Shown here piece after piece: positions 2,551 through 16,929 of a stretch of 64,000 nucleotides of DNA. The position numbers and the translations under genes were made by a program. How positions within the stretch are numbered: the stretch's first letter is position 1; the number at the start of each line of letters is the position of its first letter. The DNA is from Chitinophagaceae bacterium (GTDB lineage: Bacteria; Bacteroidota; Bacteroidia; Chitinophagales; Chitinophagaceae). Under the pieces are notes generated by a model. The model saw only the letters and a program-made list of their open reading frames with translations, was not told the DNA's origin and ran no database searches. The stretch lies in NCBI GenBank assembly GCA_947488765.1, contig CANLAE010000007.1, positions 1-64,000 on the forward strand, read 5' to 3'.

Positions 2551-2572
2551 AAAATTGTTTAAAGATTTTGAT

Positions 2573-3580
2573 ATGAAATTGATGAAAAAAATTGTACTGA
2601 CATTTATTTGCGCAACTATTGGCACTGTGGCAATCAATGCCCAGGTAGATCCACATTTCTCGCAATACTACATGTATCCTTCTTATTTAAATCCTGCTTT
2701 AACAGGGGTTTTTGATGGAGATTACAGAGTAACTGGAATTTACAGATCACAGTGGGGAAATATAACTTCTCCATTTTCTACGCCTGGAGTTGCTGCGGAC
2801 TTTAGTGGAAATAAAAGTCTGAATTATGGTGTTAGTCTTTTACAACAATCTGCTGGCGATGGCGGTTACAATTATTTAACTGCTTATGGTAATGTAGCTT
2901 ATACCGGAATCAGACTTGGCGCTTTAGGAAACCAAAGAATTGTTTTTGGGTTACAAGCCGGCATGATCCAAAGAAGGTTCAATCCTTCAAAATTATCCTG
3001 GGGTGATCAATGGAATCCAATCACAGGTTACAACCCATCTAATCCAACTGCAGAATTTTTAAGTCGAACCTCTGCTACAGCTTTTGATGCCGGTGCCGGT
3101 GTTTTGTATTATGATGCACAAAGTGGAAAAAAAGTAAATTTTTATGGCGGATTTTCAGCAGCACATTTAAATATGCCTGATGATAAGTTTAGTGAAAATG
3201 GATCGGAAAAGTTACCCATGCGTTTTACCATTCATGCGGGTGCAAGAATAGTTATCAGCGAAACTTTTTCACTAACACCAAACGCACTTTATATGAAACA
3301 AGGGAGTGCAACAGAAACCATGATTGGCGCATACGGACAATTGAAGGCCCCAATGAAAACAGATTTTTTATTTGGTGTGAATTATAGAATCAACGATGCA
3401 ATTGCTCCTTATGTAGGCTTTAGTTACAAAGAATTTACACTTGGAGCAAGTTATGATATCAACTCTTCTGATTTAAGTAAAATGCAAAAAGGAGCAAGCA
3501 GTTTTGAAATATCATTATCATTCATAGGTCGCAAAAAAACTCAGACCCCTGAAGTAGAGTTTATTTGTCCAAGATTGTAA
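2573..3580 (+). CDS. PorP/SprF family type IX secretion outer-membrane protein
   Basis: 335 residues from ATG 2573; an upstream in-frame TTG at 2555 and an ATG at 2582 are alternatives. A Sec signal peptide ends near INAQ, followed by the family start VDPHFSQYYMYPSYLNPALTG and a beta-rich barrel ending in SFEISLSFIG and a terminal Cys-Pro-Arg-Leu. PorP/SprF proteins are outer-membrane components that help export or anchor type B sorting-domain proteins. Position directly after the adhesin and before the PorE-like gene suggests one operon and a dedicated partner for that adhesin. Family assignment is secure; the partner role is inferred. Confidence 0.92.
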   Translation: MKLMKKIVLTFICATIGTVAINAQVDPHFSQYYMYPSYLNPALTGVFDGDYRVTGIYRSQWGNITSPFSTPGVAADFSGNKSLNYGVSLLQQSAGDGGYNYLTAYGNVAYTGIRLGALGNQRIVFGLQAGMIQRRFNPSKLSWGDQWNPITGYNPSNPTAEFLSRTSATAFDAGAGVLYYDAQSGKKVNFYGGFSAAHLNMPDDKFSENGSEKLPMRFTIHAGARIVISETFSLTPNALYMKQGSATETMIGAYGQLKAPMKTDFLFGVNYRINDAIAPYVGFSYKEFTLGASYDINSSDLSKMQKGASSFEISLSFIGRKKTQTPEVEFICPRL

Positions 3581-3608
3581 CAAGACACAAAAAAAATATA
3601 TTATAAAA

Positions 3609-5654
3609 ATGGCAACAAGGAATTACATGAAAAAGCTAACCATCTTATTTACACTCTTCTGCTTTACAATATTTGCATATTCACAGCCTGTTTATGATTT
3701 TTTAAAAGCAGCTGATGATTATTATAAAAATGGAGATTATTTTTCTGCAGCACAGTATTATGAAAAATATCTGGGTATCGGAAAAAATAAAATAAAAGGA
3801 AATGATTTTGATCCTTATGCAGCTGCATCACTTACCAAACAACAAAAAACTGCAGTAAGTAATAAGCAACAAGCAATGTATAATTTAGCAGAAAGCTATC
3901 GCTTATTAAATTTTCATACTAAGGCTGAACCATGTTATTTAAAAGCATCTGCTTTTTCAAAAACTGAATTTCCAGTTGCTTCCTATTGGTATGGGAAAAC
4001 CCTCAAGGCTTTAGGCAAGTATGATGCTGCAGATTCTGTATTGGCTTCGTTTTTAGCTACCTATTCATCTGCTGACAGTTACAAATTAGATGCAGAAAGA
4101 GAATCTAAAAATCTTAAATTTATTCAATCACAATTACTTAAAAAAGATTTGTATTTATACACTGTAGAAAAAGCTGCTAACAATTTAAATACAAAAGGTG
4201 CAAATTATGCTCCAATGTTGATGGATACAGATAAATTAATGTTTACATCTACCAGATTAGATTCATCTCAACCTAAAAACAAACAATACATCAATCATAT
4301 TTTTGTTGCAAATCTTACTGATGGAAAAGTTACTTCAATCACTAAAACAAATGTGCCACAACCAGTAGACATTCACCAAGGTGTTACATCAACTACACCC
4401 GATAAACAAACATTGTTTCTGAGCAGATGGTCTTTGGTAAAAGGAAATAAGATTGCACAATTATATGTAAGTAAAAAGATTTCAAATGATGCTTGGGAAG
4501 AGCCTAAATTGTTAGATACTTTATATAATTATCCTGGGTTTAGCTCACAACAACCATTTGTAATGCCTGATGGAAAACATTTGTTGTTTTCAAGTAATCG
4601 TCCAGGTGGAATTGGAGGATTTGATTTATGGTATGTTACTATAGACAATGCAGGCAAACCGCTTGATCTTCCGGTTAATATGGGAAGTACCATCAATTCT
4701 GTATATGATGAACAAGCACCTTATTACCATGCTGCTTCAAATACTTTAATCTTCTCATCCAATGGAAATATCGGAATGGGTGGTTTTGATTTCTTTAAAA
4801 GCAAAGGAAATATTGACTCATGGAGTGTTCCTGAAAATTTTGGTTATCCGGTTAATTCTATCAAAGATGATATTTATATTGTTGCTAGCGGAGGTCCGAA
4901 AAATATCTTGGAGCATGTAGTATTCAGTTCAGACCGTTCAAGTGAATGTTGTTTGGATTTATTTTATTTGGCGAAGAAAAGACTCTTAAAGCAAATTTCT
5001 GGAATTGTAGTTGAATGTGATAACAAAACTCCAATTGTTGGCGCTAAAGTTGAAATAACCAATAGTAACAACAATCTTGTTCATACTCAGGTTACAGGTA
5101 ATGATGGATCTTACGCTTTCACTATGACTGATTTTGAAAATCTATCAATAAGCGGTTCTGTTAAAGGGTTTAAGCCAGCAACTATTGCCTCAGAAGCAAT
5201 TGCTGATGATGAAGTTGAAACACAAGTATTGCCGGAATTATGTTTACAAAAAATTATTGATACAATTCCTCCTCCACCAAAAGTGGATACTATTGTTGTA
5301 ATGAATAATATTTACTTCAATTTTAATGAAGCTACTATTTTGCCAGAATCATTTACTTATATAGACGCTGAAATTGTTACCATGATGAATAGATACCCAA
5401 CAATGGTAATTGAAATTAGTGGTCATACCGATAATATTGGTAAAGATGATTACAATTTAAAATTATCTGAGCGCAGGGCCAATGCAGTTAAAGATTACTT
5501 AGCTTCAAAAGGAATTGCAATTGCAAGAATGGAAACAAAAGGATTTGGTAAAACAAAACCAATTGCCCCTAACAAATTACCAAACGGCAAAGACAATCCT
5601 GAAGGAAGAGCCAAAAATAGAAGGATTGAATTTAAAGTATTACGGTACTTGTAA
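3609..5654 (+). CDS. PorE-like protein: TPR, PD40 propeller, carboxypeptidase-regulatory and OmpA domains
   Basis: 681 residues. Signal peptide (cleavage near AYSQ, residue 26), TPR-like helices at 28-175 (YYKNGDYFSAAQYYEKYL), PD40/WD40-like propeller at about 195-455 (PDGKHLLFSSNRPGGIGGFD), a carboxypeptidase-regulatory-like domain at about 460-545, and an OmpA peptidoglycan-binding domain at about 560-681 (ISGHTDNIG, LSERRANAVKDYL, NRRIEFKV). This domain order and length match PorE, the T9SS protein that links PorP to peptidoglycan in Porphyromonas. Two starts are possible (ATG 3609 or 3627, MKKLTILF); the second gives a cleaner signal peptide. It follows the PorP/SprF gene by 28 bases and is closed by a strong terminator. 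Confidence 0.88.
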   Translation: MATRNYMKKLTILFTLFCFTIFAYSQPVYDFLKAADDYYKNGDYFSAAQYYEKYLGIGKNKIKGNDFDPYAAASLTKQQKTAVSNKQQAMYNLAESYRLLNFHTKAEPCYLKASAFSKTEFPVASYWYGKTLKALGKYDAADSVLASFLATYSSADSYKLDAERESKNLKFIQSQLLKKDLYLYTVEKAANNLNTKGANYAPMLMDTDKLMFTSTRLDSSQPKNKQYINHIFVANLTDGKVTSITKTNVPQPVDIHQGVTSTTPDKQTLFLSRWSLVKGNKIAQLYVSKKISNDAWEEPKLLDTLYNYPGFSSQQPFVMPDGKHLLFSSNRPGGIGGFDLWYVTIDNAGKPLDLPVNMGSTINSVYDEQAPYYHAASNTLIFSSNGNIGMGGFDFFKSKGNIDSWSVPENFGYPVNSIKDDIYIVASGGPKNILEHVVFSSDRSSECCLDLFYLAKKRLLKQISGIVVECDNKTPIVGAKVEITNSNNNLVHTQVTGNDGSYAFTMTDFENLSISGSVKGFKPATIASEAIADDEVETQVLPELCLQKIIDTIPPPPKVDTIVVMNNIYFNFNEATILPESFTYIDAEIVTMMNRYPTMVIEISGHTDNIGKDDYNLKLSERRANAVKDYLASKGIAIARMETKGFGKTKPIAPNKLPNGKDNPEGRAKNRRIEFKVLRYL

Positions 5655-6500: not shown

Positions 6501-6983
6501 TTATCGATATTGTATATACTTGATGTAATTTTTTTGAGTGCTTTCTTGCGAAATAGTATCTTTTACAAACCCATGCTTTTCTAAAATGTAAATTGATTTA
6601 ATATTTGCTGCATCAACATTTGCTTCAATATTGTTTAGCTGTAAAGCTTCAAATCCAAAATCAATCACTTTAATAATAGATTCTTGTATGAAACCTTTGT
6701 TTTGAAAAGTTGGTAATAATTCATACCCAATTTCTGCAGTTAATGTTTCAAAACAATAATTTGCAAGACAAATTGTACCAATTAGTTTATCGGTTTCTTT
6801 TAAAGTTATTGCCCAATAATATACTTCTATTTTTTTAGCAGACTCCAATACTTTGTTTATAAAAATACGTGCATCATCAATCGTTTTGCATGGCTCTCTT
6901 TTTACAAAAGTGTTTACTTCTTTATTGGATCTAAGGGAAAATATGTCTTCATCGTCATCAATTGACAACGCTCTCAAATGCAA
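6501..6983 (-). CDS. GNAT family N-acetyltransferase, RimJ/RimL type, with unusual 5' end
   Basis: 160 residues from a TTG codon at 6983. The sequence has the RimJ/RimL pattern LHLRALSIDDDEDIFSLRS, GYELLPTFQNKGFIQESI (acetyl-CoA loop) and VDAANIKSIYILEKHGF. Relatives normally begin TxRLxLR; here the in-frame codons before the TTG encode ITTLITTR, back to a TGA at 7032-7034, with no ATG, GTG or TTG among them. The real start may therefore be a rare ATT (7005-7007), or the gene has lost its start. Substrate unknown (protein N-termini or small amines in the family). Confidence 0.78.
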   Translation of the reverse strand: MHLRALSIDDDEDIFSLRSNKEVNTFVKREPCKTIDDARIFINKVLESAKKIEVYYWAITLKETDKLIGTICLANYCFETLTAEIGYELLPTFQNKGFIQESIIKVIDFGFEALQLNNIEANVDAANIKSIYILEKHGFVKDTISQESTQKNYIKYIQYR

Positions 6984-7207: not shown

Positions 7208-8782
7208 ATGGAAAAAGAAATTGGCGCTTCAATAGTCAACGAAAAAGCTGGTACAAACAGCTTTAAATTTTTAAAATCTCCCACTGGGATTAAAGGATTT
7301 GATGAGATTACACTTGGAGGCCTCCCTTTAAATCGTCCTACGCTTTTAGTAGGTGCTATTGGTTGTGGCAAAACATTTATGTCAATGGAGTATCTTATTA
7401 ATGGGGTGGAAATTTATAATGAACCTGGCGTTTTTATGACCTTTGAAGAAAAGGCAGATGAACTCCTTACAAATGTTTCTTCGCTTGGCTATGATTTGAA
7501 TAAATTAATTAAAGACAATAAAATTTATCTAGAACATTTAGAGATTGGTCATAACGTTATTAAAGAAGCAGGCACCTATAAAATTGATGGATTATTTGTA
7601 AGATTAGAACAAGCAATAGATAAAGTGAAAGCGAAAAGAGTTGTACTTGATTCTTTGGATACCCTTTTTGGAAGTTTGGATACCCATATTCTTCGTTCAG
7701 AATTTAACAGACTTGTTACGTGGTTAAAAGACAAAAAGGTGACTGCAATTGTTACTGCTGAATTAGGCAATGTTTTTGTAACACGAATGGGTTTAGAAGA
7801 ACTCATTGCAGATTGTGTAATTGAATTAAGTAATAGAGTTAACAACCAAATTAGTACAAGAAGATTAAGAGTGTTGAAATATAGAGGTTCAATGCATGCA
7901 TTAAATGAATATCCTTTTGTGATTGATGAAAATAGAATGTCTGTTTATCCAATTATTAGTCAAGGGTTAGTACAACAATCAAGTTCAGAATTCATTTCTT
8001 CAGGTATTCAGAAACTAGATGTTATGCTTGCCAATAAAGGCTTTTATATAGGAAGCAGTATTCTTATTTCGGGTACAGCAGGTACAGGGAAATCAAGTGT
8101 ATTGGCATCCTTTGCAAATGATGTTTGTAAAAAAAACCAAACTTGCCTTTTTTGTGCTTTTGAAGAAGCGCCAAATCAGATATTAAGAAATATGTTATCT
8201 ATCGGATTGGATCTTAAACCTCATGTTACATCGGGTAAATTACAATTTTATTTTGCAAGACCAAGTTTGCAAAATCTTGAATTACATTTCTTGGCTATAA
8301 AAGAATTGATTAATACTTGGAAACCCCAAGTTATTTTACTTGATCCAGTTACAAATTTAATGACTGAAGGCCCTAATAGTGACGTAAGAAGTATGTTAAC
8401 CCGATTTGTTGATTATCTGAAAACAAAACAAATCACTGTAATGTTTGCCGCTGCTATTACAATTGGATCAATTGCACGAAACCCAAGTGATGAAGGCATT
8501 TCATCTATGGTTGATACATGGATTATGGTTGAAGATATAGAGCTTGATGGTGAACGCAATAGAAGCATGTATGTAATGAAATCGAGAGGAATGGACCATT
8601 CAAAAGAAGTAAGAGAGTTTGTGATTTCTTCTTCTGGAATTAATCTTCTTCCAATTGCAAGAAATAGTCAAGGATTAATAATTGGTTCTAAAAGAATTGC
8701 AGCCGAAAAAGCAAAGGTGGAAATGGCTGAAAAAAAAGTTTTACAAAATGAAAGCATAAATGATGGCACAATTAATAGATAA
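7208..8782 (+). CDS. kaiC: KaiC-like double-domain ATPase
   Basis: 524 residues with two RecA/KaiC domains. The first has Walker A GAIGCGKT (49-56), catalytic Glu-Glu (80-81) and Walker B VVLDSLD (146-151). The second has Walker A GTAGTGKS (289-296), Glu-Glu (319-320) and Walker B VILLD (375-379). The segment SDEGISSMVDT aligns with the cyanobacterial KaiC phosphorylation segment TDSHISTITDT, so Ser432-Ser433 sit where KaiC has Ser431-Thr432; autophosphorylation is thus possible. The Lys/Glu-rich C-terminal tail (495-524) is not the cyanobacterial KaiA-binding tail. The kaiB-like gene follows 54 bases downstream. Non-cyanobacterial KaiC proteins are linked to stress and signalling; the role here is unknown. 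Confidence 0.93.
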   Translation: MEKEIGASIVNEKAGTNSFKFLKSPTGIKGFDEITLGGLPLNRPTLLVGAIGCGKTFMSMEYLINGVEIYNEPGVFMTFEEKADELLTNVSSLGYDLNKLIKDNKIYLEHLEIGHNVIKEAGTYKIDGLFVRLEQAIDKVKAKRVVLDSLDTLFGSLDTHILRSEFNRLVTWLKDKKVTAIVTAELGNVFVTRMGLEELIADCVIELSNRVNNQISTRRLRVLKYRGSMHALNEYPFVIDENRMSVYPIISQGLVQQSSSEFISSGIQKLDVMLANKGFYIGSSILISGTAGTGKSSVLASFANDVCKKNQTCLFCAFEEAPNQILRNMLSIGLDLKPHVTSGKLQFYFARPSLQNLELHFLAIKELINTWKPQVILLDPVTNLMTEGPNSDVRSMLTRFVDYLKTKQITVMFAAAITIGSIARNPSDEGISSMVDTWIMVEDIELDGERNRSMYVMKSRGMDHSKEVREFVISSSGINLLPIARNSQGLIIGSKRIAAEKAKVEMAEKKVLQNESINDGTINR

Positions 8783-8836
8783 ACCAATTGAGAATTGTTG
8801 ATAGGAAATTTTTTGTAGTAATAAAATAATATTAAA

Positions 8837-9169
8837 ATGAACTCTGAACAAAATCCTACATCCGTAAATGAAAAAAAAGAAGAAAATGCTAAGTTTATTT
8901 TTCAATTATTTGTTAGTAATAATTCAGCAGTCTCATCAAGGGCAATTTTAAACGTTAAATCAATTCTTGAAAAAAAATATAAGGATCATTATATTTTGGA
9001 TATAATTGATATTTATGAAAATCCAGGTTTAGCTATTACCGAGGAAGTGCTTGCAATTCCATTATTAATCAAAAAATTCCCTTTGCCAGAAATTAGAATG
9101 ATAGGTGACTTCTCGGATACTAAAAAAGTTTTACATGAATTCTTATTCGATATTTATTTAAAGCCCTAG
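8837..9169 (+). CDS. kaiB: KaiB-like protein
   Basis: 110 residues: an acidic/polar N-terminal extension of about 17 residues, then a KaiB thioredoxin-like domain (FIFQLFVSNNSAVSSRAILN, DIIDIYENPGLA, EEVLAIPLLIKKFPLPEIR, MIGDFSD). The prolines of the KaiB fold-switch half (NP, IP, FPLP) are kept. KaiB binds KaiC in cyanobacteria; adjacency and shared strand make KaiC-KaiB interaction here likely but inferred. The stop is two bases before the next ATG (9172). Confidence 0.92.
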   Translation: MNSEQNPTSVNEKKEENAKFIFQLFVSNNSAVSSRAILNVKSILEKKYKDHYILDIIDIYENPGLAITEEVLAIPLLIKKFPLPEIRMIGDFSDTKKVLHEFLFDIYLKP

Positions 9170-9171
9170 TT

Positions 9172-9612
9172 ATGGCAAAAAATTATACTGAAGAATTAGA
9201 TTTTATTCTCGATTCGTTAATAAATGAGTATGAAAATATCAACGAAGGAGTAAAGTTTTATGAAGGGGAAGCCCCAAAAACAAAAAAGGAAAAAGTAACT
9301 GAAATGGTTGTAGGAGAATATAATTTAAAGTAATGGGAAATTAATGTGCTTTTTCATCGTTTATTAATTGATAAACAAATTATTAGTATAGAACCCTTAA
9401 CTATTTCACTGGATGGCATTGTTTTTAAAGGAAAGGGAGGTTATACTGAAAAAAGTAAACTTGATGATTTAGAAAACATTCGCATTAAAATGATTGAAAG
9501 TGACCTAAAAAAATATTCATACGGATTAATGATTTTTACTGGAGTAGTTGCAATTGGTACTATCATCTCCGCAATATATTTTGCCTTAGAGATTTGGAGA
9601 CATTTTTTTTGA
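9172..9612 (+). pseudogene. Small membrane-anchored protein gene interrupted by one in-frame TAA
   Basis: An ATG at 9172 opens a 53-codon acidic, helical reading frame (MAKNYTEELDFILDSLI...EYNLK) ending at TAA 9331-9333. The same frame continues at once (WEIN-VLFHRLLIDKQIISIEPL) to 9612, with the motif ISLDGIVFKGKGGY and a C-terminal membrane helix. Read through, the product is about 146 residues. From memory, this shape resembles small Bacteroidota proteins with a helical or winged-helix-like head, an F.GGY motif and one membrane segment. A single nonsense codon in one gene is thus the simplest reading; two separate short proteins remain possible. It is the third member of the kaiC-kaiB group. 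Confidence 0.6.
9346..9612 (+). CDS. Small single-pass membrane protein (3' part of the interrupted frame)
   Basis: 88 residues if started at GTG 9346, the first usual start codon after the TAA. Residues 58-83 form a membrane helix (YGLMIFTGVVAIGTIISAIY) followed by a short aromatic tail. If the upstream TAA is a real stop, this part could be made by reinitiation, since only 12 bases separate stop and GTG. No known function. Confidence 0.5.
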   Translation: MLFHRLLIDKQIISIEPLTISLDGIVFKGKGGYTEKSKLDDLENIRIKMIESDLKKYSYGLMIFTGVVAIGTIISAIYFALEIWRHFF

Positions 9613-9623
9613 AAAATTAATAT

Positions 9624-10103
9624 CTAACTCTTTCTTTTATGCAAAGGCAAAGAAGTTATTTCTGCTAAAGCTTTTGCACCTAAATCACCTTCCTTACTAA
9701 AAGACCAAACAAACAATGATTTTATTGGGTTGGTTTTTCGAATTGCTTCAACTGCTTTTAAGGTTAATTTTTTTGCAATTCCTTTTCGTCTGTATTCTTC
9801 TAGTACCATTGCCGAACACAAATACAAAGTATCGTAGGATATATTCAATGGAGTTTTTTCATAGAGTTCTTTCTCTGAAATTTTTTGTTCAAGAAATTGA
9901 TGCATTAATTCGGTTGTTGTTGGTAATAAAAGTATCCATGCAACAGGTCCATTTCCATCATCATACTCAGGTACAGTTGCCGGATGAATTTGTTGAAGAT
10001 GTTGAATTACTTCCTCATTAACATCCAATTGATCAGGGTCATTTTTTGTGGCAAATACTTCGTCTGCCAATTGCAACATTCTTTCAAAATTACTTAATGC
10101 CAT
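9624..10103 (-). CDS. GNAT family N-acetyltransferase
   Basis: 159 residues from ATG. The C-terminal half carries the acetyl-CoA binding segment VLEEYRRKGIAKKLTLKAVEAI, preceded by a strand DTLYLCSAM; the N-terminal half is acidic and less typical (YDDGNGPVAWILLLPTT). Substrate unknown. It converges on the kai-associated membrane protein gene with an 11-base gap and has no obvious terminator between them. Confidence 0.75.
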   Translation of the reverse strand: MALSNFERMLQLADEVFATKNDPDQLDVNEEVIQHLQQIHPATVPEYDDGNGPVAWILLLPTTTELMHQFLEQKISEKELYEKTPLNISYDTLYLCSAMVLEEYRRKGIAKKLTLKAVEAIRKTNPIKSLFVWSFSKEGDLGAKALAEITSLPLHKRKS

Positions 10104-15666: not shown

Positions 15667-16929
15667 TTATTTCAAATAATCAAATTTAAATTTACTTAAA
15701 TCAGGTGTGAAAGGCTTTGTTCTCTTTAATTCATATTCATAAATGGTTTTGCCTACATTTTTCATGAAAGGAAATCCAATGCCATCATAATCATATTTAT
15801 CATCATTAAAAATACCATCATTATTGCATAAGATAGTTGCACTGAGCATGAATTCAACATTATTTTTAAAATCAACGATATAGGAAATGTCAGTTAAAAA
15901 TCCATAGGCATCACCAACCTTATTAAATATTCTGATATTGCTGTCTGGCTTTGTTTTCTCACTGCCTAGTAACATGAATTTGCAATAGGCATCCCAATAA
16001 TTTGTGTTGTCGTAATTGGGGTATTTACTTTCTTTTGGATAAGCACTCATCCAGTGTAATAAAAACTGTTCATCTTCTTTATTGATTTTGAATCTATGCT
16101 TTGAAGAAACAGTTTCAGGGAAAAGTATGGTGCGTAAAATTTGATGTAAATCTTCTAAATAAATTCTGTTCTTAGTAGTGAAATCAAATGGTTCATTAAT
16201 TAACTCATTTCCTTTATAATAACCTTTGCCAAATTGCGCATTAAATGTTGGATAAACTGCATTGCTGTATTGCGGATCCTGGGTATAAATAATTTTTCCT
16301 GTTGTGTCATAAAACTCAATAGGATTAGTAGTTTTGTTTTGTTCTGCTGTTAATGCAACTTGCAATCGGTGTCTGATAACTGCATCTTCAAAACCTTTCT
16401 TTTTTAATTTTTTTTGTATTTCTTCCTGCCCCAAAAATTCATACAAGCGATTGTAGGCATCATTGTCGCTTACTAGAAAAATTTGTTTGATGTAATGTGC
16501 AATATTGGGTACTCCATTTTCACTAGAAGGATGGTTGTAAACCAATGTTTGTTTGGCTGAATTGCTATCCGTAATCATTGCGGTAGTTTTATCCACCCCA
16601 TATTTTTTCAGCTCTTGCATTTTTTCTAAAGCTAAAAAAGCAACGGGCATTTTTACAGTACTTGCAGGATAGAAATAATTGTTTTTATTGACGTTGAAAG
16701 CGTAGTCGGTAAAATGCGGAAAATTATTTTTATCTCTGTCAATTTTTGTGTAAATAATCTGAACATTGTATTGATCTTTGAAGTTCAAAATTGGCTTCAA
16801 TTCAGGATTTGATTTTAGAATATTTTCAAGAAAATTCTGATTGTCATTTCGCTGTTGCATTGTAATTTTTTTCTGAGCATTTACCTGTAAGCAACTAAAA
16901 AAAAATATGGTATAAAGTATAAATTTCAT
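15667..16929 (-). CDS. Secreted class A beta-lactamase-fold serine hydrolase
   Basis: 420 residues with signal peptide (cleavage near VNAQ). The SxxK motif is STVK (Ser90-Lys93, YPASTVKMPVAFLAL) and the SDN motif is at 154-156 (VSDNDAYNRLYEFLG). The expected KTG is replaced by KVG (IFNKVGDAYGFLTD). It is much longer than true class A beta-lactamases (about 290), so a cell-wall or other hydrolase role is at least as likely as drug resistance. Ends a minus-strand run with kdsA 37 bases upstream of its start. Confidence 0.8.
   Translation of the reverse strand: MKFILYTIFFFSCLQVNAQKKITMQQRNDNQNFLENILKSNPELKPILNFKDQYNVQIIYTKIDRDKNNFPHFTDYAFNVNKNNYFYPASTVKMPVAFLALEKMQELKKYGVDKTTAMITDSNSAKQTLVYNHPSSENGVPNIAHYIKQIFLVSDNDAYNRLYEFLGQEEIQKKLKKKGFEDAVIRHRLQVALTAEQNKTTNPIEFYDTTGKIIYTQDPQYSNAVYPTFNAQFGKGYYKGNELINEPFDFTTKNRIYLEDLHQILRTILFPETVSSKHRFKINKEDEQFLLHWMSAYPKESKYPNYDNTNYWDAYCKFMLLGSEKTKPDSNIRIFNKVGDAYGFLTDISYIVDFKNNVEFMLSATILCNNDGIFNDDKYDYDGIGFPFMKNVGKTIYEYELKRTKPFTPDLSKFKFDYLK

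Follow-up and report, generated by a model that had tools for sequence, protein, structure and literature searches.

In cyanobacteria, the KaiABC system is read out through SasA, CikA and RpaA. Rhodobacter sphaeroides has a KaiBC hourglass of the KaiC2 group, in which KaiC needs no KaiA for its autophosphorylation and responds to the ATP/ADP state (PMC10076222; this and the other articles given by PMC number are cited from excerpts). A Bacteroidetes group with only KaiB2- and KaiC2-like proteins is known (PMC5520375), and Bacteroidota also have loci of the order kaiC-kaiB-kaiB-histidine kinase. The window examined here is the whole stretch of 64,000 nucleotides at positions 1 to 64,000 of contig CANLAE010000007.1 from a Chitinophagaceae bacterium (GCA_947488765.1). 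It contains a kaiC and a kaiB followed by a third gene, designated T, with a predicted membrane helix. Kai genes in Bacteroidota being already known, T appears to be the new element; neither a T-like KaiC partner nor a kaiC-(kaiB)-T arrangement was found in the open-licence literature. We consider it reasonably probable that a KaiC2-type timer or energy sensor is read out at the inner membrane via T, with KaiB as an optional modulator. That KaiC and T form the minimal unit, a timer at the membrane which does not need KaiB and in whose clade KaiB is on its way out, is about evenly balanced.

The window KaiC matches the Pfam KaiC model in two stretches (330 bits) and has two KaiC domains, each with a Walker A motif and a Glu-Glu pair (residues 80/81 and 319/320). 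It scores 618 bits against the KaiC family NF006799 of NCBIfam (cut-off 408) and 321 bits against the cyanobacterial equivalog circ_KaiC (TIGR02655), below the cut-off of 546. The best solved relatives are the R. sphaeroides KaiC entries (496 bits). Ser432-Ser433 align with the Ser-Ser pair of that protein, whose phospho-sites are Ser413 and Ser414 (PMC10076222); two serines at the phospho-site are a feature of KaiC2 (PMC5520375). The window KaiB matches Pfam KaiB at 63.9 bits (cut-off 27), scores 64 bits against the cyanobacterial equivalog circ_KaiB (TIGR02654), below the cut-off of 145, and is most similar to the second kaiB of the two-kaiB loci. Its AlphaFold2 model has the element order E-H-E-H-E-E-H (E, strand; H, helix), which is the thioredoxin-like order. 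The thioredoxin-like form is the KaiC-binding form of KaiB (PMC11551320). Pro75, Pro82 and Pro84 have the spacing of the fold-switch prolines Pro58, Pro65 and Pro67 (PMC11551320), and all three are invariant in 17/17 aligned KaiBs from the T-linked clade described below. The window's genome (2.5 Mb, rated 100% complete) holds one KaiB and one double-domain KaiC; its remaining KaiC-family matches are weak, each at most 33.9 bits. An earlier note made from the DNA alone had described a double-domain KaiC in which the two Walker A motifs and the two Glu-Glu pairs are present and a Ser-Ser pair occupies the phospho-site, followed by a KaiB with the fold-switch prolines. Both descriptions are borne out by the Pfam matches, the alignment and the invariant prolines.

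The window set resembles the R. sphaeroides hourglass in having no KaiA, judged for the window by the adjacent genes, and in the Ser-Ser phospho-site (PMC10076222). The two differ in that the KaiC of R. sphaeroides ends in a coiled-coil tail, while KaiCs linked to T are short-tailed, and the excerpt of PMC10076222 mentions no T-like protein. With cyanobacterial KaiABC the window set has the KaiC and KaiB families in common; it has no adjacent kaiA or kinase, and both proteins fall below the cyanobacterial equivalog cut-offs. The kaiC-kaiB-kaiB-kinase loci of Bacteroidota have homologous KaiC and KaiB proteins in the same order up to the last gene. In contrast to these, T loci have one kaiB or none, and T replaces the kinase.

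To examine the arrangement in relatives, 73 loci were collected by scanning named genomes with two KaiC peptides, which yields a sample and not a census; the KaiC alignment behind the scan combined the window with one further T locus and a kinase locus, so that two T loci were included in it. Profile searches identified 16 kaiC-kaiB-T and 8 kaiC-T loci. The others are 14 loci of kaiC, one kaiB and a histidine kinase, 28 of kaiC, two kaiB and a histidine kinase, and 7 that are cut or broken. Because the same arrangement occurs in further genomes, that of the window is not due to chance. The order kaiC-kaiB-small membrane gene, which the earlier note had proposed to look for in relatives, is thus conserved in 16/73 loci, and 8 more have the membrane gene next to kaiC without kaiB. 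Its stress on the KaiC-KaiB pair has to be reversed, since it is the membrane gene that is kept and KaiB that disappears. No kinase frame lies downstream of T in any of the 24 T loci, within the 414 to 5542 bases available after T. T is single-copy in 24/24 T genomes and was found in 0/22 kinase-type genomes, which cover 22 of the 42 kinase-type loci. KaiB is absent from all 8 kaiC-T genomes (E up to 0.001) and present once per genome in the other 16. Gaps in assembly were rejected as an explanation for the kaiB-less loci, as kaiC and T are separated there by -4 to 70 bases and the genome of one of them, L103 (G344; L numbers denote loci, G numbers genomes), is 100% complete; most of the other seven genomes are unrated. 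The idea that T is a random neighbor was rejected on its recurrence across loci and genomes.

Neighboring frames of at least 90 amino acids were compared within 6 kb of the T loci, less at contig ends. Apart from the module genes, no such neighbor is common to more than 5/24 T loci in these stretches. Seven flanking gene groups are common to L110, L111, L113 and L148, and three to L085-L088. Flank sharing within these sets indicates that flanks are conserved among close relatives only. One further locus, L015:6270-7778 (G085:C150), is a second kai locus, whose genome carries the canonical L016 as well; its kaiB precedes kaiC, and the KaiC frame is broken after 325 codons.

The family of the window was surveyed in 394 genomes chosen by kinship. 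T matches above 200 bits occur in 3/394, each beside kaiC: the window's genome, G205 (the genome of L090) and G344. A KaiB match is present in 49/394. The other 13 family genomes with a match to the T profile score 21.7-56.2 bits. No KaiC was detected in the 1.9-10 kb surrounding these weak matches and one more (21 stretches), in a search that found its 4 positive controls. The weak matches suggest that Bacteroidota have a broader family of membrane proteins with winged-helix-like character. Members of this wider set away from kaiC are L079:4562-5014, L078:2415-2852, L084:1325-1798, L179:2732-3634 and L180:4441-5013; they combine a winged-helix-like part with membrane helices at the C-terminus, and most have a GGY motif.

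A maximum likelihood tree of 43 KaiCs was built to follow the history of the module. The KaiCs linked to T group in a single clade (bootstrap 98, SH-like approximate likelihood ratio test [SH-aLRT] 94), and its sister is the one-kaiB-kinase clade (98/94). A quick tree of 68 rows recovers the T clade (SH-aLRT 96) with the kinase clade adjacent (93, one cut row inside). The 43-KaiC tree keeps only 6 of the two-kaiB-kinase rows and omits L144 and all cut loci, and the 68-row tree excludes L142, L144, L146, L155 and L157, in which KaiC is partial. The KaiC frame of L093, one of the 14 one-kaiB-kinase loci, is split in two by a frameshift or a real split, and L066:1359-2882, by length on the same contig, shows this split too; L093 was excluded from one of the two profile searches behind the locus classification, both trees, the residue table and the constraint analysis. 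On the 43-KaiC tree the exchange of kinase and T requires 1 change and KaiB presence within the T clade requires 5, of which the starred branches force at least 3 for the KaiB-less group; such counts cannot separate gain from loss. Repeated KaiB loss is the simpler reading given the gene order and the kaiB-bearing sister groups. One kinase/T switch and repeated KaiB loss fit these trees best. L085 and L086, which have kaiB, and L087 and L088, which do not, are close relatives with three flanking genes in common, and in L087 and L088 there is a 4-base overlap between T and the kaiC stop.

KaiC residues were tabulated for all but the cut loci. Walker A, Glu-Glu and Ser-Ser are all retained in the KaiB-less KaiCs. 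Across the T clade the first phospho-site is Ser in 23/25 KaiCs and Phe in 2, both KaiB-bearing, and the second is Ser in 25/25. Counted from position 480 on, KaiCs of the two-kaiB-kinase group have a median of 109 residues, compared with 33 for the one-kaiB-kinase group and about 29 for the T groups; the window KaiC has 45. T-clade KaiCs therefore lack the long C-terminal tail of the KaiC2 type. The coiled-coil tail is found predominantly in KaiC2 and is not a defining feature (PMC10076222). Because the one-kaiB-kinase group is already short-tailed, loss of the long tail preceded T. Arg132 is conserved in KaiB-bearing groups and less so in the KaiB-less group, a difference given no weight as it comes from 7 readable rows in a scan of about 475 positions.

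Constraint on T was estimated from the ratio of nonsynonymous to synonymous substitutions (dN/dS). It is 0.02-0.07 in 8/15 computed pairs (dS up to 1.2) and 0.07 in L089/L085 at a dS of 2.5; in the remaining 6/15, 4 of them with the window, dS is saturated and no ratio is claimed, and the pairs overlap in members. For KaiB, dS is finite (up to 1.9) in 7 pairs, whose dN/dS is 0.11-0.29; 5 of them are among the 8 T pairs. A single pair of the kinase clade, L099/L114, gave a KaiB dN of 0.005 and dS of 0.07. Among pairs whose KaiCs are 0.6-0.7 identical, KaiB has a median identity of 0.40 for the T clade (58 pairs) versus 0.69 for the one-kaiB-kinase clade (11 pairs). Distances between KaiCs correlate with those between T proteins (Mantel r 0.862, 24 rows without L144, 0/5000 permutations as high). 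T is strongly constrained, as judged from these substitution patterns, and KaiB more weakly.

The T protein of L086 was modeled with AlphaFold2 from 24 sequences (mean pLDDT, the model's confidence score, 88). Three helices lead into a two-stranded wing in this model, followed by a short helix and a single long one at residues 90-145. The VIA alignment rows, mainly for residues 2-113, are mostly winged-helix DNA-binding proteins. 3elk_B is the best match (Z 9.3, root mean square deviation 2.1, 72 aligned), with the H-H-H-strand-strand core matched. In 24/24 relatives hydropathy peaks close to the C-terminus (maximum 1.88-2.29 over 19 residues), and 6-19 residues follow this peak. By inference, T would be a tail-anchored protein with its winged helix in the cytoplasm. 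Family searches were largely negative. Pfam gave no convincing family for the 24 members, the best E being 0.0027 to YrhC and the displayed scores of the first member lying below cut-off. NCBIfam with 4/24 members gave a best E of 0.062, below cut-off, and a profile search of PDB sequences a best E of 0.44. One weak match each was returned by PADLOC with 2/24 members (L153, PDC-M50A, E 0.007) and by PHROGs with 3/24 members (E 0.07). The membrane half of the window T, used alone as query, matches in 5/148 relatives including its own genome, the others at E 2e-8 or weaker.

In the proposed mechanism KaiC would autophosphorylate without KaiA and track the ATP/ADP state, as its R. sphaeroides homologue does. 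The phosphorylated or nucleotide-loaded KaiC ring may then dock on the acidic winged helix of T at the inner membrane, and the output of the set would be tail-anchored T and not a histidine kinase. KaiB, where present, would switch fold, bind the KaiC ring and modulate it; it would be dispensable, and its repeated loss would leave KaiC-T. We infer contact between KaiC and T, membrane recruitment and the control of that recruitment from the sequences compared. The earlier suggestion that the set might act at the membrane through the third gene gains strength from the single clade, the replaced kinase and the strong constraint, with the KaiC-T contact in it still a predicted one. Archaea offer a partial likeness. 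ArlH is a single-domain KaiC, unlike the double-domain KaiC studied here. It is a KaiC homologue in a membrane machinery, and the archaeal ArnR and ArnR1 are membrane proteins with an N-terminal helix-turn-helix, similar to T by description (PMC13286277).

Several observations weigh against a readout through T. Most winged helices are DNA-binding. The structural match is moderate, since best VIA values of 7-8 are typical for models without a clear match, and Foldseek returned nothing significant for the T model (best E 0.44). Helices 2 and 3 of T are together near neutral (-3 to +2). A kinase-like frame lies upstream of kaiC in 2/24 T loci (L112 and L122; 107-122 bits). The T profile was built from kaiC-linked genes, which biases the family survey and the search of T genomes toward such genes. 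KaiB and T are absent from 9/9 other genomes of the window's genus that were searched (G001-G009); this patchiness may reflect horizontal gain or many losses. Among the 17 KaiB-bearing T-clade KaiCs the first phospho-site is Phe in the 2 mentioned above, and a nearby Trp is replaced by Cys in 4. The KaiB gap between clades is smaller at KaiC identities of 0.7-0.8, with 0.60 (6 pairs) versus 0.72 (66 pairs), and the pairs are not independent. Finally, the T gene of the window itself is interrupted by a stop.

That stop was examined in detail. The frame that opens 2 bases after kaiB (9172) runs for 53 codons to a TAA, and the membrane helix lies downstream in the same frame. The T profile covers positions 1-146 on the window (223.9 bits) with 1 TAA inside. 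T is intact as a single gene of 145-154 amino acids in the 24 named loci, and in the orthologous locus L065, which shares its genome with L090, T is a single open frame of 147 amino acids (53% identical). Where the window has the stop, 16 of the 24 relatives have Glu, 7 Asp and 1 Ala; the window copy is the only one of 25 T genes with an in-frame stop. A shared or programmed stop was thus rejected, as was a natural two-gene arrangement. The earlier note had placed a small single-pass membrane protein in a frame starting two bases after kaiB. A frame does start there, which ends at the TAA; the membrane helix is present, as the second half of one interrupted gene. The in-frame stop itself is not mentioned in that note.

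The window copy may be a recently disabled copy (null allele) or a consensus error. For this copy alone, and compatibly with any reading of T elsewhere, it is conceivable, though we lean against it, that the set is decaying, with T a pseudogene and KaiC-KaiB left without output. The in-frame TAA at a conserved position and the patchy occurrence within the genus agree with decay. T has, however, no frameshift or second stop, and kaiC and kaiB are intact. Compared with its four nearest relatives, the window T has 14-15/53 differences before the stop and 18-21/91 after it. These counts give no sign of long decay.

A second alternative is that T is a membrane-bound transcription factor, in which KaiC would control DNA binding by the winged helix at the inner membrane. 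Fold comparison of residues 2-93 puts mostly DNA-binding winged helices, of the PadR, MarR and DtxR types, at the top. Against this, residues 1-91 have a net charge of -5 to -9 in 24/24 members, and the third helix, at the recognition position, has -1 to -3; surface charge was judged by charge count only, which is a weak proxy, and helices 2-3 together are near neutral. An acidic winged-helix domain makes protein docking seem likelier than DNA binding. The charge of T leans to protein docking without being decisive, and we regard a transcription factor as the less likely reading. It is very improbable that T merely travels in the operon, serving some other membrane function without contacting KaiC: the wider membrane family does occur away from kaiC (13/394 genomes), yet every T match above 200 bits in the survey and in the T and kinase-type genomes belongs to a kaiC locus, the linkage persists where the intervening kaiB is absent, no other neighbor recurs in this way, and KaiC and T distances agree.

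The features of the window locus are listed in Table 1.

Table 1. Coordinates of the kaiC-kaiB-T locus within the window.
Feature	Position	Strand	Basis
kaiC, double-domain KaiC2-type ATPase, 524 amino acids	7208..8782	+	Pfam, NCBIfam, solved-structure alignment
CI Walker A GAIGCGKT, KaiC residues 49-56	7352..7375	+	
CII Walker A GTAGTGKS, KaiC residues 289-296	8072..8095	+	
Ser432-Ser433 codons, phospho-site position	8501..8506	+	Alignment with R. sphaeroides KaiC
kaiB, 110 amino acids	8837..9169	+	Pfam KaiB; AlphaFold2 model
T, third gene, one frame, 146 codons and final stop, in-frame stop inside	9172..9612	+	
In-frame TAA within T	9331..9333	+	
88-codon GTG frame after the TAA (membrane frame of the earlier note)	9346..9612	+	
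Predicted single membrane helix of T	9520..9591	+	Register of L086 residues 117-140

The locus lies between two GNAT acetyltransferase genes, both encoded on the opposite strand (6501-6983 and 9624-10103). No KaiA, kinase or response regulator is encoded by the adjacent genes, the only ones examined for this, which agrees with the earlier description of the surroundings, and the histidine kinase found directly downstream in the KaiC-kinase operons of Bacteroidota is absent. Elsewhere in the window, a PorP/SprF protein is followed by an OmpA protein with PD40 and carboxypeptidase-regulatory-like matches (2555-5654), an arrangement frequent alongside type IX secretion. Positions 15667-16929 encode a protein with a Beta-lactamase2 domain (PF13354, 62.5 bits).

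T is a specific candidate for a KaiC output: it is small and strongly constrained, stands at the place of the kinase of the sister clade, and is kept with KaiC after KaiB loss. Contact between KaiC and T is a simple two-protein question, and the near relatives L085/L086 and L087/L088, with and without kaiB, make the role of KaiB testable. These loci suggest a membrane-based readout of the KaiC timer in one branch of the Bacteroidota.

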